Below, in pieces: positions 42 through 59,908 of a DNA stretch of 64,000 nucleotides (within the stretch, counting starts at the first letter, position 1; each line of letters opens with the position of its first letter). Origin of the DNA: Leeuwenhoekiella polynyae. Its GTDB lineage: Bacteria > Bacteroidota > Bacteroidia > Flavobacteriales > Flavobacteriaceae. The position numbers and the translations under genes were made by a program. The notes beneath the pieces were generated by a model, which saw only the letters and a list, made by a program, of their open reading frames with translations, had not been told where the DNA came from and did not search any database. Location: the NCBI RefSeq assembly GCF_004104075.1, contig NZ_QOVK01000002.1:1-64000 (forward strand), written 5' to 3'.

Positions 42-55
42 GTAAAACGTTTTAC
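42..55. promoter_or_regulatory. LacI-type operator palindrome (site 1)
   Basis: Perfect 14 bp palindrome GTAAAACGTTTTAC with a central CG. It is the same core found upstream of eight other transcription units in this window. It lies 52 bp upstream of the metallopeptidase gene at 108, but it could equally serve a divergent gene left of the window. The binding protein is inferred to be LacI-family from the operator shape; no such gene is present here. Confidence 0.7.
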
Positions 56-107
56 CATCTTAAAAATATTATAATTCCCTAAAATAAAGCAAACTAAATC
101 TTTAAAA

Positions 108-770
108 ATGATAAAAACACTTTCTAAATATTACATACTCGCTTTAATTGCTGTTGTAATTTCTGGCAATTTACAAGCACAAAAGTATACATTAACCTAT
201 ACGAGTCAAGATGATACCTTAGATCCTTCAATTCAAAAAGGAATTGAGAAAATCTTTAAAAAAGTATATCCAAAACTGGTAAAGGATTTCAATAAAAATT
301 CTCAGAAGCATGTGACCATTAAAATTGATACGGCTTATGATGGTGTTGCTTATGCACATCAGGGAGCGATCACTATTAGTTCAGCTTGGCTTCATAAAAA
401 ACCCGAAGATCTTGATTTAGTAACCCACGAATTGATGCACTTAGTTCAATCATATCCAGGCGGAGCTGGCCCCGGCTGGTTAACGGAAGGAATCGCAGAT
501 TATGTGCGCTATAAGTATGCCTTAGATAACGACGGAGCAGGATGGTCATTAACTCCTTTTAGTCCTAATCAAAAATATGAGAACAGCTATAGAATCACTG
601 CGCGTTTCTTGCTTTGGATTACTCAAAATTATGATAAGAATCTGGTTAAGAAACTAGATTATGATTTGCGTAATAAAAAATATACAGCTCAGACTTGGAA
701 GGACTATACAGGTAAAACTGTAGATGAACTTTGGCAGGAATATGCATCTAAACCTAGTGTGAATTCTTAA
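108..770 (+). CDS. Secreted BSP-family (basic secretory protein) zinc metallopeptidase
   Basis: A 220-residue protein with a Sec signal peptide (about residues 1-25, ending NLQAQ). A gluzincin-like zinc site HELMH is at residues 107-111, followed by a WLTEGIADY segment whose E127 is the probable third ligand. Together with the AYDGVAYAHQGAI region this matches the plant and bacterial 'basic secretory protein' family (PF04450), whose bacterial members are usually about this long. Function in the family is poorly defined; periplasmic or secreted peptidase activity is the normal prediction. A LacI-type palindrome lies 52 bp upstream and a hairpin follows the stop codon, so it looks monocistronic. 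A peptidase in a mannan locus could trim protein from mannoproteins, but that is inference. Confidence 0.8.
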   Translation: MIKTLSKYYILALIAVVISGNLQAQKYTLTYTSQDDTLDPSIQKGIEKIFKKVYPKLVKDFNKNSQKHVTIKIDTAYDGVAYAHQGAITISSAWLHKKPEDLDLVTHELMHLVQSYPGGAGPGWLTEGIADYVRYKYALDNDGAGWSLTPFSPNQKYENSYRITARFLLWITQNYDKNLVKKLDYDLRNKKYTAQTWKDYTGKTVDELWQEYASKPSVNS

Positions 771-778
771 TAAGCCTT

Positions 779-812
779 ATATCCTAAACCTTTTTCAAAG
801 GGTTTGGGATAT
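779..812 (+). terminator. Hairpin terminator after the BSP gene
   Basis: Inverted repeat of 12 bp (779-790 with 801-812, one G-T pair) and a 10-nt loop, immediately downstream of the stop codon at 770. The following T-run is weak (TATTTC), so termination strength is uncertain. Confidence 0.55.
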
Positions 813-915
813 TTCAACAAAGTAACACCATGAATAATTTGAGAATAGTGAAGGGACATTCAAAAATTATATTCCACGTTGTGGAGAAAAACCAGAAATA
901 ATCAAATTTTAAATT

Positions 916-4741: not shown

Positions 4742-4762
4742 TAAAACGTTTTACTATATTTA
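4742..4762 (+). promoter_or_regulatory. LacI-type operator (site 2) adjoining a -7 element
   Basis: TAAAACGTTTTA at 4742-4753, then one base, then TATATTTA at 4755-4762, which differs from the Bacteroidota -7 consensus TAnnTTTG only at the last base. Placed 72 bp upstream of the GH92 gene at 4835. The operator would occupy the spacer of the promoter, fitting repression by steric block. Confidence 0.7.
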
Positions 4763-9999: not shown

Positions 10000-10011
10000 T
10001 AAAACGTTTTA
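10000..10011 (+). promoter_or_regulatory. LacI-type operator (site 3)
   Basis: TAAAACGTTTTA, 40 bp upstream of the GH43 start, heading the operon 10052-18576. A weaker relative AAAACGTCTTTA lies at about 9966-9977. A -7-like TATATTTA occurs 16 bp downstream (about 10028). Confidence 0.7.
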
Positions 10012-19823: not shown

Positions 19824-19850
19824 CAAAAATAAAGCAACTAAAAGGTTTTA
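19824..19850 (-). promoter_or_regulatory. ROK promoter with degenerate LacI-type operator (site 4)
   Basis: TAAAAGGTTTTA at 19839-19850 differs from the shared palindrome at one central base. Reading the minus strand, it is followed by TATTTTTG (19831-19824), a perfect TAnnTTTG -7 element, 50 bp upstream of the ROK start. Confidence 0.6.
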
Positions 19851-26580: not shown

Positions 26581-26601
26581 TATTTTATTACCAAATATTT
26601 T

Positions 26602-37523: not shown

Positions 37524-38431
37524 ATCAACTTTAAAGTATCTTCAATTTTTTTATAGAACATCTCATCTAGTAAAAGTGCACTTCCTATTATGGCTGCTTC
37601 TTCTCCAAATTCTGAAACATATATTTCTTCAAGAAAGGCGAGTTCTTTTTTTAATGAATTACCAAAAACATCAAAAGCTCCAGAGATTTTACCTCCCAAA
37701 ACAAGGGTTTCTGCCTCAAACTCCTCCAAGTAAGGTTTTATAAAATCTCCTAATTGACTACCAAAATTTTCAAAAACAAGTTTAGCTTGGTTATCTAGAC
37801 CTACCTTATCAAACAGCTCTTTAACATTTTTAATTTGTTCTCCTGTCATTTCCCTGTAAGCTTCAATTATACCACGTGTTGAAAACAACTCATCTGCAAG
37901 AACATTGTTATAATATTGATTATAGAGATAACCACTATCTGGAACGTTTTCACCTTTTAATATTGGCATTCCATTAATTGCAAAGCTTGCTCCCAGTCCT
38001 GTACCCAGTGTAATAGCAACAATTCTTTTATATGCTGAAGCTTTTCCTAAAGCAGCTTCAGCAATTGAAAATGCCGAAGCATCATTTATAAAACGTACCT
38101 GAGAAGGTTTCAGGTTGAGACTTTGAGCTATTTCTAATCGTAAGCTCACGTTATATAATGCTTGTAATTTAGCTACTTCCTTTATTTTGCTAATACCCCT
38201 GTAATAATCAAAAGGTCCGGGCATCGCTAAACCAACACCAGCTATATTTCTATCTAAATGCGCTACCGATTCTTTTAGTGCGAGTAACCACGTTTTTAAA
38301 ATCTCATCTTTTGTACCATGAGGATTAACTTTTTTATATGAAAAAGTCTCTTTCAGTAATTCTTTACTGGTGTGATCAAAAACACAGCAAGCAATATGAC
38401 TCCCCCCTATATCTACCCCTAAACTTAACAT
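37520..38431 (-). CDS. ROK-family kinase (probable mannokinase)
   Basis: A 303-residue cytoplasmic protein. Phosphate loop DIGGSH (7-12), AMPGPFDYYRGI, FINDASAFSIAEA with the catalytic Asp, and ITLGTGLGASF. No zinc Cys cluster and no HTH domain, so an enzyme. It lies between phosphomannose isomerase (80 bp upstream) and the MFS permease (4 bp overlap). This order supports the route mannose, mannose-6-phosphate, fructose-6-phosphate. Only remotely similar to the ROK at 18631. Confidence 0.85.
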   Translation of the reverse strand: MLSLGVDIGGSHIACCVFDHTSKELLKETFSYKKVNPHGTKDEILKTWLLALKESVAHLDRNIAGVGLAMPGPFDYYRGISKIKEVAKLQALYNVSLRLEIAQSLNLKPSQVRFINDASAFSIAEAALGKASAYKRIVAITLGTGLGASFAINGMPILKGENVPDSGYLYNQYYNNVLADELFSTRGIIEAYREMTGEQIKNVKELFDKVGLDNQAKLVFENFGSQLGDFIKPYLEEFEAETLVLGGKISGAFDVFGNSLKKELAFLEEIYVSEFGEEAAIIGSALLLDEMFYKKIEDTLKLM

Positions 38432-40430: not shown

Positions 40431-41159
40431 CTACCTATTACTTTCTACAGAATAAATAAAACTATCTGATTTGTAATACCCTAAATTATATTCAATTGGC
40501 CTTTCTCCCTGATCAAACACAAATCGTTTCCTGAATAAAACAGGGGTTTCTTTTTTAATCTTGAGTTTGTTTGAGATAAACTCGTCTGAAGCGGTTGCAC
40601 TTATTTCTTCTTTAGACAAAGATGCTATGATTGCATGTTCCTGCTCCAGCATTTCATATAATGGTAATTTAAAGTCTTCCTCCCCTGTCAACCCCACACG
40701 TGGATGAAAGTAGGAGACAAAGTACACAAAGGGCTCATCTGTTTTACCTCTAACTCGCTCCATTTTCAATACATTCTTATCTTTAGAAATTTCAAAAAAC
40801 CGGGCGATGTCATCTGAAGGCTTTACCCAGCTTAGATTTAATTCAAAATTTCTGATAGTAATTCCCCGCAATTTCATTTCCTGAGAAAAACTCAACCAGT
40901 TGTTTGACTTAGAGCTTACAGGTTTGGGAGCGACCTTTGTACCTGCCTTCTTTTTCCTAATCAATAAACCTTCAAAAACGAGTTTTTTAATAGCCTGCCT
41001 TACCGTAGATCGAGAAATCGCTAATCTATTACTAATCTCTACTTCACTGGGTAAAACTTTCCCTTTTTGATATTCCTCCTGTTCAATTAACGCTCTTAAC
41101 AACTCTTCAACCTGAGCGTGAAGAGGAACAGGACTTTTGTGATCTATAGTAAATTTCAT
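40431..41159 (-). CDS. GntR-family (HutC/UTRA) transcriptional regulator
   Basis: A 242-residue regulator. Winged helix-turn-helix at about 10-75 (LPSEVEISNRLAISRSTVRQAIKKL, then a wing with KKKAGTKV), linked to a UTRA effector domain (about 95-238) with EKISKDK-type strands and PIEYNLGYYKSD near the end. UTRA domains bind sugar phosphates or similar small ligands. Mannose-6-phosphate is a plausible inducer because the isomerase operon starts 116 bp further along in the same direction. An ATGT-N4-ACAT site sits 30 bp upstream of its own start, suggesting autoregulation. Confidence 0.9.
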   Translation of the reverse strand: MKFTIDHKSPVPLHAQVEELLRALIEQEEYQKGKVLPSEVEISNRLAISRSTVRQAIKKLVFEGLLIRKKKAGTKVAPKPVSSKSNNWLSFSQEMKLRGITIRNFELNLSWVKPSDDIARFFEISKDKNVLKMERVRGKTDEPFVYFVSYFHPRVGLTGEEDFKLPLYEMLEQEHAIIASLSKEEISATASDEFISNKLKIKKETPVLFRKRFVFDQGERPIEYNLGYYKSDSFIYSVESNR

Positions 41160-46937: not shown

Positions 46938-46949
46938 TAAAACGTTTTA
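46938..46949 (-). promoter_or_regulatory. LacI-type operator (site 7), SusC2 side
   Basis: TAAAACGTTTTA, 80 bp upstream of the SusC2 start and 22 bp (centre to centre, about two helical turns) from site 8. Next to it is TTTTACAACGTTAAAG, which shares TTTACAACGTT with the palindrome before the GH2 gene. Confidence 0.7.
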
Positions 46950-46959: not shown

Positions 46960-46980
46960 TAAAACGTTTTACTATAATTG
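46960..46980 (+). promoter_or_regulatory. LacI-type operator (site 8) with -7 element, GMC side
   Basis: TAAAACGTTTTA at 46960-46971, one base, then TATAATTG (46973-46980), one mismatch from TAnnTTTG. It faces the GMC dehydrogenase, with the same 1 bp spacing as sites 2 and 6. Together with site 7 it controls a divergent promoter pair. Confidence 0.72.
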
Positions 46981-47114: not shown

Positions 47115-48833
47115 ATGCAAATAAAAGAATCATCAAAAATCTACGATGTCATCATTGTCGGCTCTGGTGCCGGGGGTGGTATGGCAACAAAAGTTCTGGC
47201 AGATGCCGGACTCAAGGTTGCAGTGATAGAAGCAGGTCCTTACTTTGACCCTGCCGCCCCAGAACAACGCACTCAATTAAAATGGCCTTATGAGTCTCCC
47301 AGACGTGGTGCTTCTAACCATAGACCTTTTGGTGATTTTGACAGTGCATACGGTGGTTGGGAGATAGAAGGAGAACCTTATACTCAAAAAGATGACACGC
47401 AGTTTGACTGGTTTAGATCTAGAATGCTGGGTGGGCGTACCAATCACTGGGGGCGTATTTCTTTGCGTTTTGGAGAGCGAGATTTTAAACATTATAGCTA
47501 TGATGGGCACGGTGATGACTGGCCTATAGGTTATGAGGATGTCAAGCCTTATTACGACAAAGTAGATAAACTTATAGGTGTTTTTGGTACTAAAGAAAAT
47601 ATAGAAAATGAGCCTGATGGCTTTTTCTTACCCCCACCCAAACCCAGACTTCACGAACTTTTCTATATAAAAGGAGCACGTAAATCTAACATACCAGTGA
47701 TTCCATCACGCATGTCTATGCTTACTAAAAAGATAAATGACGATCGCGGTATTTGTTTTTATTGTGGGCAATGCTCTCGTGCGTGTGCGGTATATGCTGA
47801 TTTTTCTGCAGGAACATGTTTGATCTTTCCTGCTCAAAAAAGTGGAGGTCAGATTGATCTTTTCGTGAATTCTATGGTACGTGAAGTAACCACAAATGAA
47901 GAAGGAAAAGCTACTGGGGTTTCTTACATTAGCAAAGACGATCGTAAAGAATATAAACTCAAAGGCCGTGTCGTTGTGCTAGCAGCTTCTGCTTGTAGTT
48001 CTGCGCGAATTCTTTTAAACTCAAAAAGCGAGCAACACCCTAATGGTTTGGGTAATAGCAGTGATATGGTAGGTCGATATTTGCACGATTCTACCGGCGC
48101 TAGCCGTTCAGCTTTTATTCCAGATTTAATGAACCGGGATACCTATAATGAAGATGGTGTAGGCGGAATGCACGTATATACACCTTGGTGGGGCGATAAT
48201 AAGAAACTGAATTTCCCTCGTGGATATCATATTGAAGTTTGGGGAGGTCTGGGAATGCCAAGCTATGGTTTTGGTTTTAACCCTAATGACCTCAATCGCT
48301 TTTTTAATCAGAAAGTTGGCGGCTATGGAAACAGTCTTCGTAAAGATATCAAAAAATATTACGGCTCTACCATAGGTATGGCTGGCCGTGGCGAGTCTAT
48401 CGCTATGAAAGACAATTATTGCGAGATAGATCCTACCACGGTAGATGAGTTTGGTATTCCTGTGCTTCGTTTTAATTATAAATGGTCTGAACACGAAGTT
48501 AACCAAGCCAAACATATGAACGATTCTTTTGAAGAAATTGTGCACAATATGGGAGGTACTATGCTACAAGATGCTCCTTCAAAAGCGTCTAATTACGGAT
48601 TAGAAAATCCTGGCCGTATCATTCACGAAGTAGGAACTACCCGTATGGGAAGCGATCCTAAAACTTCAGTAGTAAATGAATTTCAACAATTGCACGATGT
48701 AGACAATGTGTTTATAGTAGACGCCGGTCCTTTTGTATCTCAAGCCGATAAGAATCCAACCTGGACTATTTTAGCGCTTTCGTGGAGAGCTTCAGACTAC
48801 ATCATAGAACAACTTAAACAGCAAAATATTTAG
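47115..48833 (+). CDS. FAD- and Fe-S-containing GMC dehydrogenase, catalytic subunit
   Basis: A 572-residue GMC oxidoreductase without its own signal peptide. FAD loop GSGAGGG (16-22) with E39 at the end of beta-2, GGRTNHWG, and the C-terminal HEVGTTRMGS and NPTWTILALSWRASDYI. A cysteine cluster C214-x2-C217-x2-C220-x3-C224 sits where FAD-dependent glucose and fructose dehydrogenases bind an iron-sulfur cluster. It is followed 3 bp later by a Tat-signal small subunit, as in FAD-glucose and gluconate dehydrogenases. Family relatives oxidise sugars, including C3 of glycosides (glucoside 3-dehydrogenase). Likely periplasmic, carried out by the small subunit. Confidence 0.88.
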   Translation: MQIKESSKIYDVIIVGSGAGGGMATKVLADAGLKVAVIEAGPYFDPAAPEQRTQLKWPYESPRRGASNHRPFGDFDSAYGGWEIEGEPYTQKDDTQFDWFRSRMLGGRTNHWGRISLRFGERDFKHYSYDGHGDDWPIGYEDVKPYYDKVDKLIGVFGTKENIENEPDGFFLPPPKPRLHELFYIKGARKSNIPVIPSRMSMLTKKINDDRGICFYCGQCSRACAVYADFSAGTCLIFPAQKSGGQIDLFVNSMVREVTTNEEGKATGVSYISKDDRKEYKLKGRVVVLAASACSSARILLNSKSEQHPNGLGNSSDMVGRYLHDSTGASRSAFIPDLMNRDTYNEDGVGGMHVYTPWWGDNKKLNFPRGYHIEVWGGLGMPSYGFGFNPNDLNRFFNQKVGGYGNSLRKDIKKYYGSTIGMAGRGESIAMKDNYCEIDPTTVDEFGIPVLRFNYKWSEHEVNQAKHMNDSFEEIVHNMGGTMLQDAPSKASNYGLENPGRIIHEVGTTRMGSDPKTSVVNEFQQLHDVDNVFIVDAGPFVSQADKNPTWTILALSWRASDYIIEQLKQQNI

Positions 48834-48836
48834 ATT

Positions 48837-49550
48837 ATGGACAGAAGAGACAGTTTAAAATCTATGTTTTTAGGTTCTCTAGGAACCGGTCTTTTACTTA
48901 CTGGATGCAATACTGATGTGTCTGCTCCAACTCCAGAAATTGCAAAAGCAGCTGAAGATTATTTTGGCCGAACCCCTAAAGAAGCTGCATTAATAGAAGA
49001 ATTGAATTCTGAACAGTTTTTTAATGAGCACGAGATGGAAACCTTAAATATTTTGTGTGCGCTCATTTTACCGGCAAACGATGAGTACGGGAGTGCTACA
49101 GATGCCGGGGTACCCGATTTTTTAGAATTTATTGTTAAGGATATGCCCCATTTAAAAACTCCAATACGCGGGGGGTTGATGTGGCTGGATCACGCTTCTA
49201 ATTCCACATTTAATACTGAATTTCAAGAGGCATCTGAAGAAAACCAAAAAGCTATTCTTGATACCGTAGCTTTTCCTGATCCTGATAAGCCCGGTTGGGA
49301 ACAACCCGTACAAGTACAGTTTTTCTCTTTGATGCGAAATCTTACGATGACAGGATATTATACTTCCGAAATGGGTATTAAAGATCTGGACTATAAAGGA
49401 AATCAACCAAACATTTGGGATGGTGTTCCCGAAGAAGTTTTACAAAAGCACGGCGTAAGCTACGATCCGGAGTGGATTGCGAAATGTGTTGATCAAAGTC
49501 AGCGTGGGGTTACAGCAGAATGGGACGATGAGGGAAATTTAATCACCTAA
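48837..49550 (+). CDS. Gluconate 2-dehydrogenase subunit 3-family protein, Tat lipoprotein
   Basis: A 237-residue protein. Begins MDRRDSLKSMFLGSLGTGLLLTGC: a twin-arginine-like signal plus lipobox (C24). The body (FNEHEMETLNILCALILPANDEYGSATDAGVPDFLEFIV, FFSLMRNLTMTGYYTSEMG) is the gluconate 2-dehydrogenase subunit 3 family (PF13618), the small subunit that chaperones and carries the GMC catalytic subunit through the Tat pore. Coupled to the GMC gene by a 3 bp gap. No cytochrome c subunit is encoded nearby, so the electron acceptor is unknown. Confidence 0.88.
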   Translation: MDRRDSLKSMFLGSLGTGLLLTGCNTDVSAPTPEIAKAAEDYFGRTPKEAALIEELNSEQFFNEHEMETLNILCALILPANDEYGSATDAGVPDFLEFIVKDMPHLKTPIRGGLMWLDHASNSTFNTEFQEASEENQKAILDTVAFPDPDKPGWEQPVQVQFFSLMRNLTMTGYYTSEMGIKDLDYKGNQPNIWDGVPEEVLQKHGVSYDPEWIAKCVDQSQRGVTAEWDDEGNLIT

Positions 49551-49572
49551 TAAAGTTTTAGCTATAGCACAT

Positions 49573-49599
49573 AAAAGCCTCCTGATACAGGAGGCTTTT
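49573..49599. terminator. Bidirectional rho-independent terminator
   Basis: A 12 bp perfect stem (49573-49584 with 49588-49599; AAAAGCCTCCTG) and a 3-nt loop between convergent genes. Confidence 0.88.
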
Positions 49600-49710
49600 G
49601 TATTTATAAAAGAATTTAATGACTCTAGTAAACTCTACCTTAAGGAAAAACCGTGACGCTTTTAAAGCTCGATTATCGAGTAAAACCTAGGATCAATTAA
49701 AGTTGAACGA

Positions 49711-50898
49711 TTAAATAGTATGCTTAGGATTCCATTGTACAATTTCATTATTTAGCATAGAATCTAGAGCCATCTGAACGCATATAGCCGTGTTTGCACC
49801 GGTTTTTAAGTCAGACAAAGGTTTTGTGTTATTCTTGATCGAATCTCTAAAATCCATTAAAGCTTGTTTACTGGGATCTGCGTGACTAAACTCAAACGGA
49901 ATACCTTTACCAGCTTCCCAAGGTATTGTTGCTCCTGCAACACCATCTACATCTGCGCGTTTTTTAGTATAGTTTCCTTCCGGGTAAAACCATCCATTTA
50001 CATAATCTAAAATGATGGTACCTTTATCACCCATTACTTTAATTTGGTAATCGTCTTTTGCATTTGTAGTGAGACAGGTAAATGTAGCCTCTACCCCGCT
50101 GGGATATGAAAACAGGTGGTGTACATTATCATAAGTTTCCCTGCCGTCCTTCCAGTAATCAATTCCACCGGTACCAAAAACTTGGGAAGGTGTTTCTCCT
50201 AGAACCCAGTTTACAAAATCAATTTGATGCGAACACAATTCTGCTGTTAATCCACCTGAATATTCCCGGTACATACGCCAGTTTATCATACGCTCTAATT
50301 CTGGTTTGGGAACATTACGTCGCCAATTACCACTGCGATTCCATTGACACTCAAATGCGGTTATCTTACCAATTTTTCCATCTTTGATAAGATCTACAAC
50401 ATGAGTATACAATCTGGAACTGTGATACTGATGACCGGTTTGAAAAACCAAATCTCCTTTTTGAGCATCAACTACATTTAAAATATCTTCATAACCCTTA
50501 GCCATGGTTTTCTCTCCATAGACGTGCTTCCCAGCTGCCAAAGCATCTAATTCTATCTGACCATGAGTACTGAACGGTGTGGAAACTAAAACTGCATCAA
50601 TACTCTTATCTTCCAGCAATTTTCGGTAATCGGTATATGCTTTTGCAGAATCACCAGCTCTCTTCATTCCATTATCTAAACGAAACGGAATAATATCACA
50701 GCAACCGGCAACTTCTATCCCTTCGATACCATTCATTACCGAAATCAATCCACCACCCCGATCTCCGGTCCCAATAACGCCGATGCGTATGGGCGCATTA
50801 GTTCCTATGTGTTTATTGATATAAGCAAATCCCGGACTCACAGATGAAACTGCCGCCGCCGCGAGACTGCTTTTTATTACAAAATCTCTACGCTTCAT
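49711..50898 (-). CDS. Tat-exported Gfo/Idh/MocA-family oxidoreductase (second of a pair)
   Basis: A 395-residue protein with a twin-arginine signal MKRRDFVIKSS. Rossmann loop GVIGTGDRGGG (G43-x-G45-x2-G48). The EKP signature is modified to EKT (GKHVYGEKTMAKG), keeping the Glu-Lys pair but losing Pro. The middle (NRSGNWRRNVPKPELERMINWRMY, YSGGLTAELCSHQIDFVNWVLG) is typical of exported Bacteroidota members. Third gene of the DUF1080-Gfo-Gfo unit, 6 bp from its neighbour. Proposed part of a 3-keto-glycoside pathway with the GMC dehydrogenase and DUF1080 protein (inference). Confidence 0.85.
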   Translation of the reverse strand: MKRRDFVIKSSLAAAAVSSVSPGFAYINKHIGTNAPIRIGVIGTGDRGGGLISVMNGIEGIEVAGCCDIIPFRLDNGMKRAGDSAKAYTDYRKLLEDKSIDAVLVSTPFSTHGQIELDALAAGKHVYGEKTMAKGYEDILNVVDAQKGDLVFQTGHQYHSSRLYTHVVDLIKDGKIGKITAFECQWNRSGNWRRNVPKPELERMINWRMYREYSGGLTAELCSHQIDFVNWVLGETPSQVFGTGGIDYWKDGRETYDNVHHLFSYPSGVEATFTCLTTNAKDDYQIKVMGDKGTIILDYVNGWFYPEGNYTKKRADVDGVAGATIPWEAGKGIPFEFSHADPSKQALMDFRDSIKNNTKPLSDLKTGANTAICVQMALDSMLNNEIVQWNPKHTI

Positions 50899-50904
50899 TT
50901 CTCA

Positions 50905-52242
50905 CTAAATTTTGGGTTCCCAATTAGATTCATAATCCCGACTCCAAAGTTGCATAGCATCCCGATCATAAATTCGACCTGTTTTATCATCTATGTCAAA
51001 ACCGTGACCTACCCGGTATGCCATATTTGCATAATGCACCATCGCCATACTTACTGAAGCATCTTCAATGGGTGCTTTCAAGGTTTCTTTTCCGCGAATG
51101 CTTTCAAAGAAATTAACCATATGTGCAGTTGAAGAGTCACCTCCACCCCCCAGTGCGAGTCCACTTTCATCGGTCTCATCGCTCTGCTTGATTACTTTTC
51201 CGCCGCGATCCATCAACAGATAATTAGAACGATCTACAAGTACTGAACCTTCGGTTCCAAAAATTAACGTACCGCGACCACGACCGTAAGTGTTATACCC
51301 ATTGCGACTTTTGCCATCCCAATTGATGACTTTATCGTCTTCAAAGTTGAACGTTGCATACATTGTATCATACATCTCCCAGCCATCGTTTTTAAAATGT
51401 CTTTTTTCAGCTTGAACCTCAGCGTATTTTGGAAAATTTACGCCTAATGCCCAACGTGCAATATCCAATTCATGTGTTGCATTATTCCCGGTTTCTGCCG
51501 TACCATATGCCCAACCATACCAGTGCCAATTGTAATCCCAGGTTTCACTGGTATACGCTCTTCTTGGTGCCGGCCCTTGCCATAAATCCCAATCGAGTCC
51601 GGCCGGTACAGCGGCCTTTTGTTGAATTGGCGTTTCTCCCCGTGCATTAGAATAAAAAGCCACTGCTTTATATACGTCGCCAATTACACCTTTATGAATC
51701 TGACTGATAACATCTATCGTATGTAAAGAAGAGCGCTGCTGATTGCCCATTTGCACTTTTTTATCAAACTTTTTTGCAGCTGCTACCAGCAATTCGTTTT
51801 CATCCATATTGTGACTACACGGCTTTTCTACATAAACATGCTTTCCAGCTTTTAAAGCCATAACAGAGCCCGGAGTATGCCAGTGATCTGGTGTTGCATT
51901 AACCAGAATATCTACATCTTGATCATCAATAACTTTACGTATGTCGTTCTCGAGTTTAGGACTGTAATCAATATGCTCTTTAAAATTCTTAAGCGCATTA
52001 AGTCGGCTTTTTTCCATCACGTCACATAGATATACTAAACGCACATTAGATTCTTTACGAGCTATGGGCGCATAATAGGCCCCCAGGCGACGACCAAGTC
52101 CTGCAACAGCAACATTAAGTCTATCATTTGCTCCTATAATATTGCGATAACTACTGGCAGCCATACCCATTGTGGTGTTACTCAAAGCCAAAGCCGTACC
52201 GCCTAAAAGTGATTTATTTAAAAAAGATCTCCGTGTTGTCAT
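50905..52242 (-). CDS. Tat-exported Gfo/Idh/MocA-family oxidoreductase (first of a pair)
   Basis: A 445-residue protein. Near-canonical twin-arginine signal MTTRRSFLNKSLLGG. Rossmann loop VAVAGLGRRLG (about 44-54), intact EKP (HVYVEKPCSHN), then LDWDLWQGPAPRRAYTSETWDYNWHWYGWAYGTAETGNNATHELD with the His-rich active-site region. Larger than its partner at 49711 and of a different subtype. The 2 bp gap to the DUF1080 gene and 6 bp to the next oxidoreductase make a tight operon. Likely a periplasmic NAD(P)-linked oxidation or reduction on glycosides. Confidence 0.86.
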   Translation of the reverse strand: MTTRRSFLNKSLLGGTALALSNTTMGMAASSYRNIIGANDRLNVAVAGLGRRLGAYYAPIARKESNVRLVYLCDVMEKSRLNALKNFKEHIDYSPKLENDIRKVIDDQDVDILVNATPDHWHTPGSVMALKAGKHVYVEKPCSHNMDENELLVAAAKKFDKKVQMGNQQRSSLHTIDVISQIHKGVIGDVYKAVAFYSNARGETPIQQKAAVPAGLDWDLWQGPAPRRAYTSETWDYNWHWYGWAYGTAETGNNATHELDIARWALGVNFPKYAEVQAEKRHFKNDGWEMYDTMYATFNFEDDKVINWDGKSRNGYNTYGRGRGTLIFGTEGSVLVDRSNYLLMDRGGKVIKQSDETDESGLALGGGGDSSTAHMVNFFESIRGKETLKAPIEDASVSMAMVHYANMAYRVGHGFDIDDKTGRIYDRDAMQLWSRDYESNWEPKI

Positions 52243-52244
52243 AA

Positions 52245-53621
52245 TTAAAGTTCTTTGATTTTGATGTTTTTAAAAGCTACACGATCTCCATGATCCTGAA
52301 GGAGTATGTTTCCCTTTTCAAATGTTCCGAAGCCTGGCCAGTCTTTATATTTACTTTCTTGAACCAGTTGTAAAAAAGCATCGGTATTTCTATCATATTC
52401 AAGCACTTTTACATCATTTAACCAATGCGCTACATGATTATCCTTACTCACAATTCTTGCGGTGTTCCATTCTCCTATAGGATTCACTGGCTTAGCAGGG
52501 TCTGCCTGAATTAAATCGTACAAAGAAGCCAATGTGCGACTGCCTTCGTGATTACCTAACTTAGCATCTGGATGACGCATATCATCTAAAATCTGATACT
52601 CTAAACCAATTGAAGAACCTTCTCCTTTATTCAAGTCTGTATCTACATAATACTTAATACCACTATTTGCACCTTCAGTGATTTTAAAATCTACTTTGAG
52701 TTCAAAATCCTGATATTGTTTTGCAGTCACAATATCTCCTCCTGCCGCAGACTCTTCACCTCCGGTAGCAAGTACAATAAGTTCTCCATTCTCTATAACC
52801 CACCCCTTTTCAGGGAAATGATCTAGTTTTCCTCCACGCCAACCATCAGTGGTTCTACCATCCCATAATAATTGCCAACCGCTATCTTTTTCGGCTTGTG
52901 TTAAACTGTTTTTCGTATTGAATGCCTCCAGACCCATTGGCTTTGCATACTGTTGTACATTTTCTGTAATAATGTTGATATTCTTCCAACGAATTTCTTT
53001 ACCCGGCTTATCGTTATTTCCGATTGAGTGAACCTGCAGTGCTATAAAACCTGATGCGGTCTGGTCATCAATTAAGTGCGCAGCTTCCACCCCATTGATC
53101 CAGGTTTTTAAAGTATCACCCAAAGCTTCTACCCGATAGTGATTCCATTCTCCTTGCTTAAAAGCTTGCTGTGCTTTTGTATTTCCTGTTAACGGATATA
53201 GCCATCCCTTGCGCGCCTCATCATAAATACCAGCACTCCAGGCCCGGTCTGAAGGATCAATCTCGATCTGATAGCCATGTACTCTTCCATCCTTAAAATC
53301 AGGTTCGCTTAAACTGCGGATTTGTATTCCGGAATTCATAGTAGAATCTACTTTATAGTCTAATTCTAAAATAAAATCTCCATAATTCTGAGTCGTTGCC
53401 AAAAAAGAATTAGGAGTATTCGCTACTGTAGTTCCCACAATTTCATCCCCCTCTATTTGATAATCTGCTTTACCATTCAACTGCTCCCAACCGGCAAGAG
53501 ATTCTCCATCAAACAAAGGTTTCCAGGGTTCGTTACTGTCTTGATTTGATTCTTTACAGGAATTTAATACGAGCACTCCTGCTATAAAGAGTGGCAAGAG
53601 CTTCAAATTCTTTGTAATCAT
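52245..53621 (-). CDS. Double DUF1080 (3-keto-glycoside hydrolase-type) lipoprotein
   Basis: A 458-residue lipoprotein (VLNSC, C22) with two DUF1080 (PF06439) jelly-roll domains. Domain 1, about 30-215: [17 protein letters not shown] and MNSGIQIRS. Domain 2, about 240-455: [16 protein letters not shown] and ANSGIKYYV. The family is now described as 3-keto-disaccharide hydrolase: it cleaves glycosides after C3 oxidation, probably by beta-elimination. Clustering with two exported oxidoreductases and a nearby GMC dehydrogenase supports that reading here. A terminator (53689-53724) sits just upstream, so it has its own promoter. Confidence 0.87.
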
Positions 53622-53688
53622 AAAATAGTTTTTAGTTAATATATAGTCTCTTTAAATTTACGCAATCAACCTTGTAATACTTATAAAA

Positions 53689-53724
53689 AAATAGCGGAAG
53701 CCTCTTTAGGTTCTTCCGCTATTT
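53689..53724 (-). terminator. Terminator between GH92 and the DUF1080 unit
   Basis: AAATAGCGGAAG (53689-53700) pairs perfectly with CTTCCGCTATTT (53713-53724), 12 bp stem and 12-nt loop, ending 3 bp from the GH92 stop codon. Confidence 0.85.
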
Positions 53725-53727
53725 AAC

Positions 53728-55773
53728 TTAGTTTAATTCAACTGTTGTTATAAAAGAATGGGTTGTTCCCCAACCCGTATTAGGTATTTTACTGGTTTCG
53801 ATAATTAAGTTTCCGCCAGATTGTATTTCCTGATGTGTCAACCAGTTTCGGTTTATAGGTTTACCGTTTAAACTAGCTGATTTCACATAAAAATGGTCTT
53901 TATTGTAATTCTTCACTGAAATTTTAAAGGTTTTACCCGGAGCTATATTCAGTTTTACTTCCTCAAAAATGGGCGCTGTCAAATAATAAATAGGGCTCCC
54001 AACATTTGCTACCGAAAGACCGATACTGTGTAACACAAACCAGGAAGACATGGTCCCTGCATCGTCATCCATCGTGCGTAAATAGGCTTTGGGTTTATTT
54101 TGATATATGCGCCCGATATACGGATCTATCCCTTTACTATTGTCATTAAAATACGTCTGCACTACGGTATCCAGAAGAATTTCTCTAAATAACTTTTGTG
54201 ACTTCCAAGGTTGGTTTGTGGCGTTATACAATCCTGGGACTTGCAAGTCTGGCTGATTGGCATGATTGTAATTGAACTGTTCAAAAAATTGATCTAACTG
54301 ATTTGTAAAATTTTCTGAACCACCTGCCAAACTTTGTAATCCTTTTATATCCCAGGGTACAAACCAGCGATATTGCCAAATAGTTCCCTGATAGAGCCCC
54401 CTTGCCTGCATACGGTCTACATCATTTTTAGTCAGATCTTTAAAATCCTTATCCCAATAAGCTTTATAATCTAAAGCTTTATTCAAATATTCTTTGCCAG
54501 AACCTGTATCGCCCATCTCCTTAAGGATCTCACTCATTGCCCACAAATCGTAAGAAGATTCTAAAGCTTTATCCGGCGCACCAAAATCGAGCGTTTTACT
54601 CTCATCTATTAAAGAATCTTTTATCGCTTTAAAATCTACCTGATACCCTTTTTTATAGGCATCAAGCAAAACAACCATTGCATGTTCAGTACGAACGGTA
54701 GGCGAAGTTTCATGTTCTGTTGCCCAATTCTTTTTCCCGAAGCGATACAGGTTTGCAATGCTCGTAGTGATATCTTGATAAACATCAGGATATACCAGAG
54801 AAAGTAGGGGCAACTGCTCTCTGTAATTATCCCAGATTGCCCAACCGTTATACACCTTATAATCTTCATTCTGAACAGAGCCATCTGTTGCTCTAAAGGT
54901 ACCATCTTCTTCGGAAACTAAAAACGGAGACTGTGCCGTACGATACAGTAAGGAATAGAATAAATCTAAGCGATCCTGCTCACCTTTGACCTCAATATGA
55001 TTCAATTGTTTTTCCCAACTTGCCGAAGCTTCTTCTTTAAGTTGACTGAAGGATTTAGAAGTAATTCTCTTTTTTGCATAACCTTCATTTACTGAAGAAA
55101 AACCAACCTGAACTTGAGCTGCTACCCCAACTGATTTAACAAGCAATCTGTGTGCATCAAGCTCTTGAATAATCGCTGTTTCCGGCAATTTAATCGCGTA
55201 ATAAATACGGTAAGTCCCCGCGTGGCAAGTTGTTTTAGTATCTACATAACCCGAAATTAAATTTCTTCTGATCTCGTGAGTTTCTGAAACAAAGCGATTG
55301 CTCAACGCAAAAGACAGATCAATGAATAAACCGCTGTTTGTATTGGGAAAACTGTAGTTGTGCATCCCCAGATTTTGAGCAACGGTCATTTGTGCTTCAA
55401 TTCCATTTTCAAAGTTCACCTCATAAAAACCGGGTGTTGCTTGCTGCTTGGTGCGTATCAAATCAGTCTCAGCATCTGCATTGAGTATGGGTTTTATAAG
55501 AATATTACCACCGCTTCCGGTACAACCTACACCTTCCATTCTGGTATGTGTAAAGCCATCAAATTCTTTAGCATAATACTCATACCCCGTATGCTGGTGT
55601 GGATTAGTCTGCGGCCCCAGATTCATCATATTAAAAGGCGTAGTCGCTGAGGGGGACATCTGCCCGTGATCGCCACTCGTACCTAAAAAGACGTTTACAG
55701 ATCTATTTTTTTGTTGCTGTGTATAACCGGATAGTGCAAGAAAACAAAGGAGAATCGGGATAACTTTATTCAT
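53728..55773 (-). CDS. Divergent GH92 with general-acid Glu replaced by Gln (copy 6)
   Basis: A 681-residue protein, shorter than the other GH92s (727-782), with a signal peptide (about 1-20). GH92 fold is clear: NVFLGTSGDHGQMSPSATTPFNMM, FTHTRMEGVGCTGSGGNI, NGWAIWDNYREQLPL, ANQPDLQVPGLYN and MDDDAGTMSSWF with the base acids. The segment that reads xEGN[SA]W in the other copies reads YQGTIWQY here, placing Q462 where they have the general acid Glu. As I recall, this exchange marks GH92 enzymes acting on mannose-1-phosphate diesters (uncapping phosphomannan), where a good leaving group needs no acid. Co-transcribed with the MFS permease 47 bp upstream. Alternative: a weak or non-catalytic member. 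Confidence 0.87.
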   Translation of the reverse strand: MNKVIPILLCFLALSGYTQQQKNRSVNVFLGTSGDHGQMSPSATTPFNMMNLGPQTNPHQHTGYEYYAKEFDGFTHTRMEGVGCTGSGGNILIKPILNADAETDLIRTKQQATPGFYEVNFENGIEAQMTVAQNLGMHNYSFPNTNSGLFIDLSFALSNRFVSETHEIRRNLISGYVDTKTTCHAGTYRIYYAIKLPETAIIQELDAHRLLVKSVGVAAQVQVGFSSVNEGYAKKRITSKSFSQLKEEASASWEKQLNHIEVKGEQDRLDLFYSLLYRTAQSPFLVSEEDGTFRATDGSVQNEDYKVYNGWAIWDNYREQLPLLSLVYPDVYQDITTSIANLYRFGKKNWATEHETSPTVRTEHAMVVLLDAYKKGYQVDFKAIKDSLIDESKTLDFGAPDKALESSYDLWAMSEILKEMGDTGSGKEYLNKALDYKAYWDKDFKDLTKNDVDRMQARGLYQGTIWQYRWFVPWDIKGLQSLAGGSENFTNQLDQFFEQFNYNHANQPDLQVPGLYNATNQPWKSQKLFREILLDTVVQTYFNDNSKGIDPYIGRIYQNKPKAYLRTMDDDAGTMSSWFVLHSIGLSVANVGSPIYYLTAPIFEEVKLNIAPGKTFKISVKNYNKDHFYVKSASLNGKPINRNWLTHQEIQSGGNLIIETSKIPNTGWGTTHSFITTVELN

Positions 55774-55820: not shown

Positions 55821-57140
55821 TTAGGCTATTTCGGCAATGTTATGTTTTTTATGAATCCACATCCCATAAATCGCGACACTCACAAAACAGATAACGGGTA
55901 GTAAAAAAGACAAGTTCATTTCTGATAGCCCCATTATGGTAATGTCATTTACTTCTACTCCTCCTAAATCTATAATCATTCCTTGTAGCTTAGGTAACAA
56001 TGCTCCACCTACGATTGCCATAACCAGACCTGCAGCGCCTATTTTAGACTGGTCTTCTTTTAAACCTTCTAAAGCGATACCGTAAATAGTAGGGAACATA
56101 ATCGAAAGAAAAAGGGAAACCATCACCAAACTGTATAAACCAGCATCTCCCTCTAAAACGACTGTTCCTAAAGCAAATAGACCTCCTAATGATGAGAAAT
56201 AAAATAACAATTTGCCCGAACTTATAAACTTCAATAAATAAGTACCTATTGCACGCCCTACCGTAAACAGGATAAAGGCAACCAATTGATAGTTTGCAGC
56301 TGTAGAACTGGAGATCCCTTTGGATTCAGCATATTGGTAAATGTAGGTCCAGCATCCTATTTGCGCACCCATATACAATACTAGCGATATCACGCCCAGA
56401 GTGTATTTCTTATTTTTAAACAACTCACCAAAGGTATCTTTAATGCTAGGCATAGCCCCATCTCCTTTAGCCTGCGGCATTTTGTTCACCGCGATTAGGA
56501 TTAAAATAGCCAAAACAACCAGACCTAAAATCACATACGGGTTCCGAATCACCATCAAATCAGCAGATTTTATAAGGAGCTTTTGAGCTTCCGGCAGTGC
56601 CGAAAAATTCTCCACATCATCGGATTGTAACAAATCAAGAACAAAGAATTTTGCTACCATCAAGCCCACAATCAACCCAACCGGATTGAATGCCTGCGCC
56701 AGATTTAAACGCTGTGTGGCTGTTTTTTGATCTCCCAGCGCAAGAATATATGGGTTTGCGGTAGTCTCTAAAAATGCCAGACCAAAAGTAAGAATGTACA
56801 ATCCTAAACAGAAAAACCAGAATTGCCCGGTTGTTGCTGCAGGGTAAAATAATAAGGCGCCACCGGCGTAGAGCGTGAGACCAACCAAAACCCCTGACTT
56901 GTACGAGAACTTACGTACGAAAAGTGCCGCCGGAAGCGCCATGCAAAAATATCCTCCATAAAAAGCCATCTGTACCCATGCGGCTTGTGAATTGGATAAT
57001 TCTAATACTTTTTTAAAAGCCTGAACCATTGGATCTGTTACCGCATTTGCAAACCCCCATAGTGCAAATAAAGATGTAACCAGAATAAAAGGGAGTAGTA
57101 ATTTTTTAGGGACAACCGGAGTTGCTTGAGATGTATTCAT
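55821..57140 (-). CDS. FucP-like MFS sugar permease
   Basis: A 439-residue inner-membrane protein with about 12 transmembrane helices. The start FILVTSLFALWGFANAVTDPMVQAFKKVLELSNSQAAWVQMAFYGGYFCMALPAALF is that of the L-fucose:H+ symporter subfamily (FucP/GluP), as is FLETTANPYILALGD. It is unlike the MFS permease at 36360, so a second monosaccharide or a keto-sugar is probably imported. First gene of a unit with the Q-type GH92, under operator site 9. Confidence 0.88.
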   Translation of the reverse strand: MNTSQATPVVPKKLLLPFILVTSLFALWGFANAVTDPMVQAFKKVLELSNSQAAWVQMAFYGGYFCMALPAALFVRKFSYKSGVLVGLTLYAGGALLFYPAATTGQFWFFCLGLYILTFGLAFLETTANPYILALGDQKTATQRLNLAQAFNPVGLIVGLMVAKFFVLDLLQSDDVENFSALPEAQKLLIKSADLMVIRNPYVILGLVVLAILILIAVNKMPQAKGDGAMPSIKDTFGELFKNKKYTLGVISLVLYMGAQIGCWTYIYQYAESKGISSSTAANYQLVAFILFTVGRAIGTYLLKFISSGKLLFYFSSLGGLFALGTVVLEGDAGLYSLVMVSLFLSIMFPTIYGIALEGLKEDQSKIGAAGLVMAIVGGALLPKLQGMIIDLGGVEVNDITIMGLSEMNLSFLLPVICFVSVAIYGMWIHKKHNIAEIA

Positions 57141-57272
57141 TTATTTAATATTAAAACCATTGCATTTCTGAAATCGAACCCACACAATCGTTGTAGTTGA
57201 GTACTTTCAGAAATTTCAAAACGATGTTTGTGTAAAACCTGAATTAGCGAAAACGATATCTAAAAATACCAC

Positions 57273-57284
57273 TAAAACGTTTTA
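57273..57284 (-). promoter_or_regulatory. LacI-type operator (site 9)
   Basis: TAAAACGTTTTA 132 bp upstream of the MFS permease start. On the minus strand it is followed 4 bases later by TATTTTTA, one mismatch from TAnnTTTG. A weaker GAAAACGATATC lies at 57249-57260. Confidence 0.7.
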
Positions 57285-57331
57285 CTTTTGTAAATCTATA
57301 TTTTAAAAGTCAAAAATAAAAGTGCAATTAT

Positions 57332-58141
57332 TTATTTCTCAAAATAGGAGTTAAAAAATACCAATTGGTATTTGATAGCATTACGCCAAAAATCCCAGGT
57401 ATGCCCTCCTGGACTTGAGATAAACGTATGCGGTATATTAGTGTATTCAAGCTTCTCGTGCAGGTTTACATTAACCTTGTAAAAGAAATCAGATGTACCA
57501 CATTCTATAATTAGTTTTAATGAATCAGGCGTTAACAGGTTTGTAAGGTTGATCACCGTATTGGCCTCCCATCGCTCTTTATGTTCTGCATACGACCCCA
57601 GATATGAAGCCAGTTCCCAATTGTTAGGAAATGGAGTTATATCCACGCCGCCGCTCATACTACCGGCAAGTGCATATATATCCTGATGCTTAAAAGCCAG
57701 ATACAATGCACCATGTCCTCCCATACTCAAACCGGTGATTGCTCTTCCACTCTTATCATTAATAGTACTGAAATGCTGATCTACCCAATGCACCAATTCT
57801 TTTGCAACATAAGTGTCATATTTACTTTCAGGCTTAACTTCACTGTCAAAATACCAGCTACCATAGTTTCCATCAGGACATACGATAATCAGCTGGTATA
57901 GATCTGCATAATCATCCAAATCAGGTACTTGTTTTGACCACTCTGTGTAATTTCCGGAATAGCCATGTAGCAAATAAACTACCGGATATTCTTTGGATGT
58001 CGAATACCCTTCAGGAGTAATTACAATAGCATGGATATCTTTCTGCATCGCGTCACTGTGTGTCGTAACCGTTTGTATTTTTCCGGCATAAGCCGAAATA
58101 GAAAAAGAAAGAGCCAGAAAATAAATACCTAACAAACGCAT
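57332..58141 (-). CDS. Secreted esterase D-family hydrolase
   Basis: A 269-residue protein with a Sec signal (about 1-19, SAYAG). Esterase-D fold (PF00756): YLLHGYSGN, nucleophile S139 in GLSMGGHG, and D218 and H247 (SPGGHTWDFW) as the rest of the triad. Relatives include feruloyl and acetyl esterases and antigen-85-like acyltransferases. It follows the sulfatase by 30 bp in the same unit, so it probably removes an ester group from sulfated glycan fragments. Confidence 0.86.
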   Translation of the reverse strand: MRLLGIYFLALSFSISAYAGKIQTVTTHSDAMQKDIHAIVITPEGYSTSKEYPVVYLLHGYSGNYTEWSKQVPDLDDYADLYQLIIVCPDGNYGSWYFDSEVKPESKYDTYVAKELVHWVDQHFSTINDKSGRAITGLSMGGHGALYLAFKHQDIYALAGSMSGGVDITPFPNNWELASYLGSYAEHKERWEANTVINLTNLLTPDSLKLIIECGTSDFFYKVNVNLHEKLEYTNIPHTFISSPGGHTWDFWRNAIKYQLVFFNSYFEK

Positions 58142-58171
58142 AGCTGATTTTTTAGATTGAAAAGTTAGCTA

Positions 58172-59884
58172 TTAATTTGGGAAAACATCGGTTTCCTGTG
58201 CCATTGTATTCCATTCTTCTTGCATCGCAGATACCCGGTCTGGAAATTGAGTTGCAAGATTATGCATCTCGGTACGATCTTCTTTAAGATTATACAATTC
58301 CCAAGGTGCATTAGCGTCTAACTTAACCAGTTTCCAATCACCCTTACGCAAAGCAGCAGCTCCAAAATGTTCCCAAAACAAGGTTTCATTTATCGTGGTT
58401 TCTTCAGCATTTTTAATTGCAGAAACCATACTGTTACCCATATATGGGTCTATCTGCTTCCCATTAAATTCCTCGGGATATTCTGCACCAGAAAGCTCTA
58501 GAACGGTAGGCATAATATCTATAATATGCGCTGCAGATGATTTTACACCTCCACGTTCTTTAATTCCGTTAGGCCAGTGAATGATAAATGGAGAGGTGAT
58601 TCCTCCCTCATAAACACGTGCTTTCCAATATCTAAATGGTGTATTGGCCACATTAGCCCATACCGGACCGATACCAGACATAACCGTTTCGGGTCCGGGA
58701 AGGTGCTTCTCACTTTTCTTTACAGGATAGTGTATCTCCTCCCCTTCTCGGGTTTCTGAAGGTCTGTCAAAACCAATTCCGTATTGTGACGGGCGCTCAG
58801 AACTTGCTCCGTTATCAGACATAAACAGAATTACTGTATTGTCTAACTGACCGGTCGCTTCTAGCTTGTCTATAAGTTTACCTATATTTTGATCCATACG
58901 ATCTATCATCGCTGCGTGAACCGCCATTGCCCGGGAATCCCACTTCTCATCTTTGTTTTTTGCCCAGTCTAAATCAGGAAACATAAATTCTGAAAGCTTT
59001 GTGGTATCTCCTTTAAAAATTCCTTTTTCGATCAGTTTTTTATAACGTTCTTCTCTGATTTTTTGCCATCCAGCATCGTAAACCTGCTCGTACTTTTTGA
59101 TCTCTTTTTCCGGAGCCATTAGTGGCCAATGCGGAGCACAATGCGCTACATATAGAAAGAAAGGTTTTTCTTCTTTTACAAAATGATCCACATAAGCTAC
59201 TGCAGAATCCCCTATGGCATCTGTATAATAAAAATCATCTGGCACTTCTTTTACCGGCTCGGTACCATTAACCAAAGCAAACGGATCAAAATAGTCTACC
59301 ACACCCCAAATGTTTCCATAATATTTATCAAAACCCCGTGCTGTTGGATAGGTGTCTAAATCTGAAAAAGTTTCCTTTTCGGTTTGATGATTCAACCATT
59401 CTAATTGCTCATTGCCTCCCAAATCTTCAGTGGGTGAAACGTGCCATTTTCCTACCATTCCGGTCTGATATCCCGCAGTTTTTAGAACTTCGGCTAAAGT
59501 CACCGTCTCATCATCTAAGCGACCTCGATAACCCGGAAGGTTACGATCCATCGTCATCTGCCCTATCCCTGCCTGATGTGGATATTGTCCGGTGAGTAAA
59601 GCTGCCCGAGAAGGGCAACACCGGGAAGTATTATAAAAAGAATTAAAACGCAAACCACCCGCCGCAAGACTATTGAGGTTAGGGGTATCAACTTCACCGC
59701 CGTAACATCCCAGATCTGAAAAACCCAAATCATCTGCCATGATCAACACGATATTAGGCTGATTTACCGCTGTTCCTTCTGCCTTTGCGGTATCTGTATT
59801 AGCATTTCTACAGTTAATAAACAACAAAGAAGCTGTTGATAATAGCGCAATTTTTTTAAAAAAGTTGTGAGACTTATAATTCAT
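58172..59884 (-). CDS. Sulfatase (S1 family), lipoprotein
   Basis: A 570-residue lipoprotein (LFINC, C25). The formylglycine motif is RCCPSRAALLTG, with C89 as the residue to be modified (Cys-type, so an aerobic FGE or anSME maturase must exist elsewhere). Calcium ligands in MADDLGFSDLGC and MSDNGASSERP, and the arylsulfatase C-terminal WELYNLKEDRTEMHNLA. Removes sulfate esters from the glycan, indicating a sulfated, probably marine substrate. No alternative start exists ahead of the lipobox, yet the operator palindrome ends only 10 bp upstream of the ATG, so the transcript leader must be very short or absent. Confidence 0.92.
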   Translation of the reverse strand: MNYKSHNFFKKIALLSTASLLFINCRNANTDTAKAEGTAVNQPNIVLIMADDLGFSDLGCYGGEVDTPNLNSLAAGGLRFNSFYNTSRCCPSRAALLTGQYPHQAGIGQMTMDRNLPGYRGRLDDETVTLAEVLKTAGYQTGMVGKWHVSPTEDLGGNEQLEWLNHQTEKETFSDLDTYPTARGFDKYYGNIWGVVDYFDPFALVNGTEPVKEVPDDFYYTDAIGDSAVAYVDHFVKEEKPFFLYVAHCAPHWPLMAPEKEIKKYEQVYDAGWQKIREERYKKLIEKGIFKGDTTKLSEFMFPDLDWAKNKDEKWDSRAMAVHAAMIDRMDQNIGKLIDKLEATGQLDNTVILFMSDNGASSERPSQYGIGFDRPSETREGEEIHYPVKKSEKHLPGPETVMSGIGPVWANVANTPFRYWKARVYEGGITSPFIIHWPNGIKERGGVKSSAAHIIDIMPTVLELSGAEYPEEFNGKQIDPYMGNSMVSAIKNAEETTINETLFWEHFGAAALRKGDWKLVKLDANAPWELYNLKEDRTEMHNLATQFPDRVSAMQEEWNTMAQETDVFPN

Positions 59885-59894
59885 ACTAAAAATG

Positions 59895-59908
59895 GTAAAA
59901 CGTTTTAC
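59895..59908 (-). promoter_or_regulatory. LacI-type operator (site 10)
   Basis: Perfect 14 bp GTAAAACGTTTTAC, identical to site 1, beginning 10 bp upstream of the sulfatase ATG. Unlike the others it is too close to the gene for a normal leader. Confidence 0.72.

Follow-up and report, generated by a model that had tools for sequence, protein, structure and literature searches.

Contig C2 (434,901 bases) of Leeuwenhoekiella polynyae, whose 4.79-Mb genome is assembled in 47 contigs, begins with the 64,000-nucleotide stretch analysed here (the window), which Pfam marks as an alpha-mannan utilization locus. A 12-bp palindrome, TAAAACGTTTTA, recurs before most of its operons and very probably serves as the binding site for a LacI-type repressor encoded just outside the window. 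With high confidence we propose that this protein (C1:8436-9464) binds TAAAACGTTTTA, controls the alpha-mannan locus together with a distal glycosidase operon, and is released by sugar. The proposal is built on direct observation of the sites, the LacI gene, synteny and co-occurrence.

Perfect copies of TAAAACGTTTTA number nine in the window, at positions 43, 4742, 10000, 26471, 33832, 46938, 46960, 57273 and 59896. An earlier reading of the window from its letters alone (the sequence-only reading) had located all nine, seven exactly and two, given as 42 and 59895, each one base off. It had also noted a one-mismatch copy at 19839, recovered here as TAAAAGGTTTTA; this is the sole one-mismatch match in the window, and there are 11 two-mismatch matches. 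Between 0.019 (order-1 Markov) and 0.027 (order-2) perfect copies are expected by chance per 64 kb. TAAAACGTTTTA accounts for 9 of the 33 occurrences of perfect 12-bp palindromes in the window, the runner-up for two. Every perfect copy is intergenic, as claimed earlier (9 of 9 by a list of 39 genes, from which four open reading frames [ORFs] of at least 120 aa antisense to others were left out); intergenic DNA makes up 5.5% of the window by the same list. The palindrome had been given a length of 12-14 bp, of which 12 bp are firm, whereas the outer positions merely tend to AS...ST and the full 16-mer is matched by two of the nine perfect copies. An even palindrome with a central CG is the form expected of a LacI-regulon operator, and the CG is present in 48 of 54 sites chosen for the promoter comparison below, the other six having CC on the gene strand (GG on the other).

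The copy at 43-54 begins 65 bp before the start of a BSP-family peptidase gene (108-770, plus strand). Those at 4742-4753 and 10000-10011 precede two further plus-strand operons, namely glycoside hydrolase (GH) 92 (start 4835)-Gfo/Idh/MocA-alkaline phosphatase and GH43 (start 10052)-GH127-GH92-GH92-GDSL. On the minus strand, the one-mismatch copy (19839-19850) stands before ROK1 (start 19773), the copy at 26471-26482 before GH125 (start 26385)-GH92-GH97-esterase, and the copy at 33832-33843, which adjoins TATATTTG, before SusC1-SusD1-SusE-GH76 (start 33698). The divergent SusC2 and GMC genes are separated by a pair of operators spaced 22 bp, with one member on the SusC2 side (46938-46949) and one on the GMC side (46960-46971). 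Finally, 57273-57284 precedes MFS2 (major facilitator superfamily; start 57140, minus strand)-GH92-3-keto-disaccharide hydrolase-two Gfo/Idh/MocA genes, and 59896-59907 precedes sulfatase (start 59884, minus strand)-esterase. Operator position conforms to that of LacI regulons at 9 of 11 operon starts when the nearest operator is taken for the divergent pair, the exceptions being GMC (155 bp) and the sulfatase (12 bp), whose start codon may be misassigned. More than 75% of LacI sites precede the start codon by 30-140 bp (Ravcheev et al. 2014, PMC4052901; papers are cited here by PubMed Central number and from excerpts of their text). Assigned by strand and spacing, eleven operator-led operons hold 32 of the 39 window genes plus four genes on C1.

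Genome-wide, TAAAACGTTTTA was listed 14 times but at 13 distinct places, because C1:3 and C2:43 are one site within a contig overlap; the reversed-pattern control gave two. Ten of the 13 distinct copies sit in the mannan locus, within 73.4 kb. The probability of this under uniform placement is 2e-16, a figure that is post hoc since the locus was chosen for its sites. The sequence-only reading had staked its regulon on the motif not being equally frequent upstream of unrelated housekeeping genes, and the distribution favours it. Chance clustering of an AT-rich palindrome is compatible with the three off-locus copies, close in number to the control, but it would place 0.02 copies in the window, and sites occupy the same places with diverged flanks in six other genomes. 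We consider this explanation vanishingly improbable and already refuted by cross-species conservation.

The off-locus copy ACTAAAACGTTTTACT (C3:246052) lies 413 bp before a gene for a 561-aa protein, behind which come genes for a GH78 rhamnosidase and a GH2 of 1191 aa. An identical 16-mer stands in genome G155, of another genus, with homologues of the 561-aa protein (62%) and of the GH2 (51%) on either side, and genome G006, a congener, has an off-locus copy shortly before a 57% homologue of the distal GH2. Because the same kind of genes carries the site in these two genomes, we accept the distal GH78/GH2 operon as a predicted regulon member. The copy at C7:46497, which sits within a susC reading frame, was rejected. 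That at C1:150782 begins 18 bp before an extracytoplasmic function (ECF) sigma gene and, among 14 off-locus stretches compared, has a counterpart only in the near species G002 and G004; it is left as an open candidate.

No LacI gene had been seen in the window, and a LacI-type protein encoded elsewhere was predicted. The genome holds eight LacI-family genes, a result in favour of the sequence-only reading, which would have suffered from their absence. One of them (C1:8436-9464) lies 8.4-9.4 kb upstream of window base 1. The window begins at a contig break, and its opening 56 bases are identical to the reverse complement of the opening 56 of C1, apparently an assembly-graph overlap. Read across it, the predicted gene is followed by a perfect operator, SusC, SusD, a BSP-family protein, an F5/8-type-C protein and window base 1, the SusC, SusD and BSP labels on C1 having been given by eye and by likeness to window genes. 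In G003, LacI, SusC0, SusD0, BSP, F5/8 and the window GH genes run uninterrupted on a single contig, and the C1/C2 join is therefore taken as biological.

The 342-aa LacI protein combines a LacI helix-turn-helix (HTH; PF00356, 47 and 45 bits, cut-off 27) with a periplasmic-binding-protein-like sensor domain (PF00532, PF13377). Its AlphaFold model has a predicted local distance difference test score (pLDDT) of 88.5, and the best PDB matches are CcpA-DNA and PurR-DNA complexes. The hinge reads SLRTG, with L61, which we take to be equivalent to LacI L56 and PurR L54, invariant in 18 of 18 aligned relatives. Within the invariant segment TTxSFVLNG, the alignment places F24 where CcpA has R. Residue 24 of LacI presumably pairs with the outer operator base, and F24 would suit an operator that lacks the outer G found in CcpA-type sites. 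The closest named relatives by LacI sequence are Leeuwenhoekiella species. A site lies upstream of lacI in G001 and G129, and in G010 within a gap shared with MFS2.

Comparison across 13 Leeuwenhoekiella genomes (G000 to G012, G000 being the source genome) tied the operators to this gene. All 13 have a LacI match at 1e-40, and eight belong to the clade of this LacI (71-100% identity; support 100/99), from which a paralogue clade (C35 type) is separate in a tree that left out four rows (G139 and three other G000 LacI genes). Perfect sites in G000, G001, G002, G003, G004, G006, G008 and G010 number 13 (distinct), 7, 13, 10, 12, 11, 4 and 5, with reversed controls of 2, 3, 3, 2, 1, 3, 3 and 4; contig overlaps were looked for in G000 only. 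Outside the clade, G005, G007, G009, G011 and G012 have 0, 0, 2, 6 and 0 sites (controls 1, 0, 6, 5 and 5). Of the perfect sites, the fetched LacI loci account for 7 of 7 in G001, 9 of 10 in G003, 9 of 12 in G004, 8 of 11 in G006, 3 of 5 in G010 and 2 of 4 in G008. G005 and G007, which carry only the paralogue, have no site and also lack GH125; thus LacI, GH125 and operators are missing together.

These distributions bear on which protein reads the palindrome. The paralogue (54% identical, nearly the same recognition helix) might bind it, alone or in competition, given how alike the HTH regions are. It is present in G005 and G007, however, where there is no site, TAAAACGTTTTA is not among the top palindromes around the paralogue gene in G000, G003 and G006, and the two LacI types form separate clades. 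We therefore rejected the paralogue on the evidence of G005 and G007, and consider its involvement very unlikely. Even less credit is due to recognition by the GntR-UTRA regulator or the hybrid two-component system (HTCS)-like sensor, both encoded in the locus. GntR occurs in 5 of 13 genomes, and no match to it at E<=1e-20 was obtained in G001, G003, G006 and G008, which bear 7, 10, 11 and 4 sites. An HTCS orthologue of at least 72% likewise occurs in 5 of 13, with only 44-46% relatives in G001, G009 and G010 and none at E<=1e-150 in G008; moreover, the predicted HTCS motifs of Bacteroides thetaiotaomicron are direct repeats (PMC3878776). Both were rejected as binders by their distribution over genomes, in agreement with the earlier expectation that neither would bind. 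By gene distribution, LacI is the one tested regulator that follows the operators across the genus.

Operators stand before the same genes in G001, G003, G004, G006, G008 and G010, each genome having a subset, and the conserved targets are SusC0, GH92a/Gfo2, GH43, ROK1, GH125, SusC2/GMC, MFS2 and the sulfatase. The 4742 site precedes the same gene in G001, G004 and G006. The GH43 site is perfect in G001, G003, G004 and G006 and has one mismatch in G009 and G012, where LacI identity is 61%. Counterparts of the GH125 site occur in G001, G003, G004, G006 and G010, of the MFS2 site in G001, G003, G004, G006 and G008, and of the sulfatase site in G003, G004 and G006. The SusC1 site is shared with G004, and a 63% SusC1 homologue stands behind an operator in G139. 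The SusC2/GMC pair keeps its 22-bp spacing in G000, G001 (one member in GG form), G003, G004 and G006; in G008, a pair 23 bp apart lies between GMC and ROK1. The 12-bp core is near-frozen among species while flanks diverge. The CG-to-GG copy before ROK1 is itself kept in G000, G001, G003, G004, G006 and G010, and ROK1 is preceded by a perfect copy in G008. This copy is probably a site of lower strength kept on purpose.

In Flavobacterium psychrophilum, the -7 box recognized by sigma-A reads TAnnTTTG (PMC9723704). Among the 54 sites, TANNTTTR starts within 14 nt downstream of the operator in 23 and upstream in 4; the strict TAnnTTTG does so in 10 and 2, respectively. G000 alone has TANNTTTR in 5 of 11 operator-promoter pairs. 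With the -7 box downstream of the operator, geometry favours steric repression, suggesting occlusion of the promoter. In the mechanism we propose, the LacI protein would bind TAAAACGTTTTA (outer bases tending to AS...ST) as a dimer at the 11 operon starts of the alpha-mannan locus and at least one distal glycosidase operon. Without inducer it would sit just upstream of the -7 box and block RNA polymerase. A sugar released from mannan (mannose or a small mannoside is probable, judging from gene content alone) would enter the periplasmic-binding-protein-like domain and cause release. The 22-bp pair would serve the divergent SusC2 and GMC promoters. LacI might instead activate from these sites, or do both, with the HTCS as main inducer: HTCS-like and GntR genes are present in the locus, and an exact -7 match follows within 14 nt in only 23 of 54 sites. 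Recognizable -7 boxes are nevertheless more often downstream than upstream, the position for occlusion, and LacI-family proteins are mostly repressors. We judge activation unlikely, though worth keeping in mind, and favour repression by LacI.

Beyond the genus, we compared 397 genomes of the family, ten of them LacI-positive by a match at 1e-100. The 16-mer ASTAAAWCGWTTTAST has at least one copy in 7 of the 10 versus 25 of the 387 others, and at least two copies in 5 of 10 versus 4 of 387. The reversed 16-mer was found in about 41 of the 397 and in none of the ten; hence the 25 LacI-negative genomes with ASTAAAWCGWTTTAST are at chance level. Seven genomes of other genera have a 48-65% LacI relative, and six of these (G155, G139, G042, G312, G129 and G390) carry a TAAAWCGWTTTA-type site beside the gene or its locus, that of G390 being TAAATCGATTTA, between lacI and GH43. 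A Flavivirga locus (58% LacI) has two sites. The three 16-mer copies of G155 adjoin homologues of the window alkaline phosphatase (69%), the distal GH2 pair and the window BSP protein (48%), and G328 has one copy between a 40% LacI and SusC. As judged from sequence, the same operator type is present in other flavobacterial LacI-SusC pairs.

Two further arrangements were observed. In G170, G298 and G349, a tandem ACTAAAWCGWTTTAGT pair spaced 20-21 bp (L137:9188, L139:9467 and L140:9024) separates SusC from a LacI gene of distant relationship (26-27% identical). In addition, the HTH of a further LacI-family gene (C14) has a one-mismatch TAAAACATTTTA roughly 0.1 kb ahead of it, at L029:4912.

Several observations weigh against one LacI repressor acting through these sites. 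In this genome, even with one mismatch allowed, the gap ahead of lacI contains no site, and so no sign of autoregulation, which occurs in 72% of LacI regulators and is usual, not required (PMC4052901). G011 has 6 perfect sites versus a control of 5 in a genome with 9% contamination, and G009 has 2 versus 6. The strict 16-mer is missing from 3 of the 10 LacI-positive genomes (G129, G312 and G390), and its copies in G042, G112 and G155 lie away from the lacI locus. No site was found near lacI in G112 or in a Sinomicrobium locus (53%). Four LacI-negative genomes (G170, G298, G349 and G174) carry at least two 16-mer copies, and no LacI or Sus gene was recognized near those of G174. In the promoter comparison, gene context guided the hand-picking of the 54 sites in 13 genomes, which passed over several one-mismatch copies as well as the sites of G002 and G004, and the R of TANNTTTR was allowed after looking. 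Lastly, 7 of the 39 window genes have no operator of their own: ROK2, MFS1 and GH92e (34019-38431), a 600-aa ORF, GntR, GH2 (60000-61808) and HTCS. The earlier claim of one regulon across the locus holds for the eleven operator-led operons and is overstated because of these seven; similarly, an operon start does follow each copy, but some operons of the locus lack one. The minus strand showed no terminator-like site between 38300 and 41500, and ROK2, MFS1, GH92e, the 600-aa ORF and GntR may accordingly be transcribed by read-through from SusC2.

The glycosidases of the window, as assigned by Pfam, are six GH92 and one each of GH125, GH76, GH43, GH127, GH97 and GH2. Accompanying genes encode two SusC/SusD pairs, a sulfatase, two MFS permeases, two ROK proteins, a GMC/gluconate-dehydrogenase-subunit pair, a 3-keto-disaccharide hydrolase, a GntR-UTRA regulator and the start of an HTCS-like sensor. 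The GH125 alpha-mannosidase (24955-26385; PF06824, E 2.4e-176), the GH76 protein of the endo-alpha-mannanase family (26602-27831; PF03663, E 1.3e-42) and the GntR-UTRA regulator (40431-41159; PF00392/PF07702) are on the minus strand. The N-terminal part of the sensor (62061-64000, plus strand; PF07494) runs past the window in an open frame of 1323 aa, and the label HTCS rests on its propeller domain and length. A scan of the window with Rfam gave no match at gathering score.

A second perfect palindrome, TACAACGTTGTA, lies at 61844-61855 in the GH2/HTCS divergent gap. Its intergenic copies in the window are this perfect one and a one-mismatch form at 33727, before SusC1, and the genome as a whole has two perfect copies; it also occurs in the G006 and G004 loci and not in the G003 stretch. 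Copies are too few to call it a general second operator, and it is possibly the site of another regulator. A ATCGTTTTCG-like motif near two operators was not frequent and was rejected as a second motif. GMC, gluconate-dehydrogenase subunit 3, two Gfo/Idh/MocA and PF06439 genes (47115-55773) form a 3-keto-glycoside-type set inside the mannan locus, behind the same operators as the mannan genes. They hint at an oxidative route for mannosides, a pathway associated with genes of this type. Genes for GH76, SusE, SusD1, SusC1, GH92e and MFS2/esterase/sulfatase (26602-36367 and 55821-59884) are 99-100% identical to those of G004, the remaining compared window genes only 77-98%, and the GH76-to-GntR stretch is missing from the G003 and G006 loci. 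The near-identical stretches look like recently exchanged modules.

Most discussion of how polysaccharide utilization loci (PULs) are controlled in Bacteroidota centres on HTCS, SusR-like and sigma/anti-sigma systems. For the mannan cluster described here, the switch is likely a single sugar-sensing regulator of an ordinary kind, with a regulon that is unusually large and clean for a Bacteroidota PUL. We lean towards a broader view in which one LacI-type repressor, rather than an HTCS or sigma/anti-sigma system, would act as master switch for an entire marine alpha-mannan locus, its 11 operon starts spread across some 70 kb, and for the distal GH78/GH2 operon as well, with an operator core almost frozen across species and genera, a sub-consensus ROK operator kept on purpose and an operator type taken up by other LacI-SusC pairs of the family. 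A near-invariant operator permits motif searches for mannan genes, including distal genes and genes of unknown role, in flavobacterial genomes, and in a LacI regulon the inducer can be tested using a single protein and a single probe. Glycans rich in mannose are widespread substrates in the sea, and carbohydrate-active enzymes (CAZymes) for them occur in about a third of the North Sea Bacteroidota genomes studied (PMC9213526).

Regulators of this kind are known; neither this member nor its operator or regulon appeared among the matches listed from the open-licence PubMed Central literature, which likewise included no report of a LacI-controlled alpha-mannan PUL in flavobacteria. A CG-centred even palindrome is reported for 1173 of 1303 LacI regulators (PMC4052901), and the system resembles the local sugar regulons of that study in palindrome, site position and sugar genes; it differs in its 11 PUL operon starts and near-invariant 12-bp core. 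The same source treats one group of the Bacteroides phylum, and the word 'flavobacteri' is absent from its main text. The Bifidobacterium LacI-family regulators RbsR2/RbsR3, with consensus TGATAAAACGTTTTATCA, have an identical 12-bp core, although they belong to another phylum, their genes concern ribose and nucleosides and their outer bases are TGA...TCA (PMC4746261). In Enterobacter aerogenes, this 12-mer has been described as resembling a Cra box (PMC4521459). HTCS and SusR control of PULs is treated in PMC3878776, which assigns the alpha-mannan loci of B. thetaiotaomicron to HTCS_Man and the GntR-family ManR (BT2103); these too are predicted to control Bacteroidota alpha-mannan/mannoside PULs, but they belong to other regulator families than LacI, and HTCS motifs are direct repeats. 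Gramella xylan and pectin PULs include an annotated LacI gene, as here, for other substrates and with no operator or regulon given in the text available (PMC5306329, PMC4891872). PMC6298971 distinguishes GH92 PULs, often sulfatase-rich, from sulfatase-free GH76/GH125-type PULs, whereas here a sulfatase (58172-59884) shares one locus with GH76 and GH125 (24955-27831). Hel_I_6 (PMC9213526) shares the gene set GH92 (six copies), GH43, GH125, GH2 and GH76, and a word search of that paper's main text finds neither 'LacI' nor 'regulator'.

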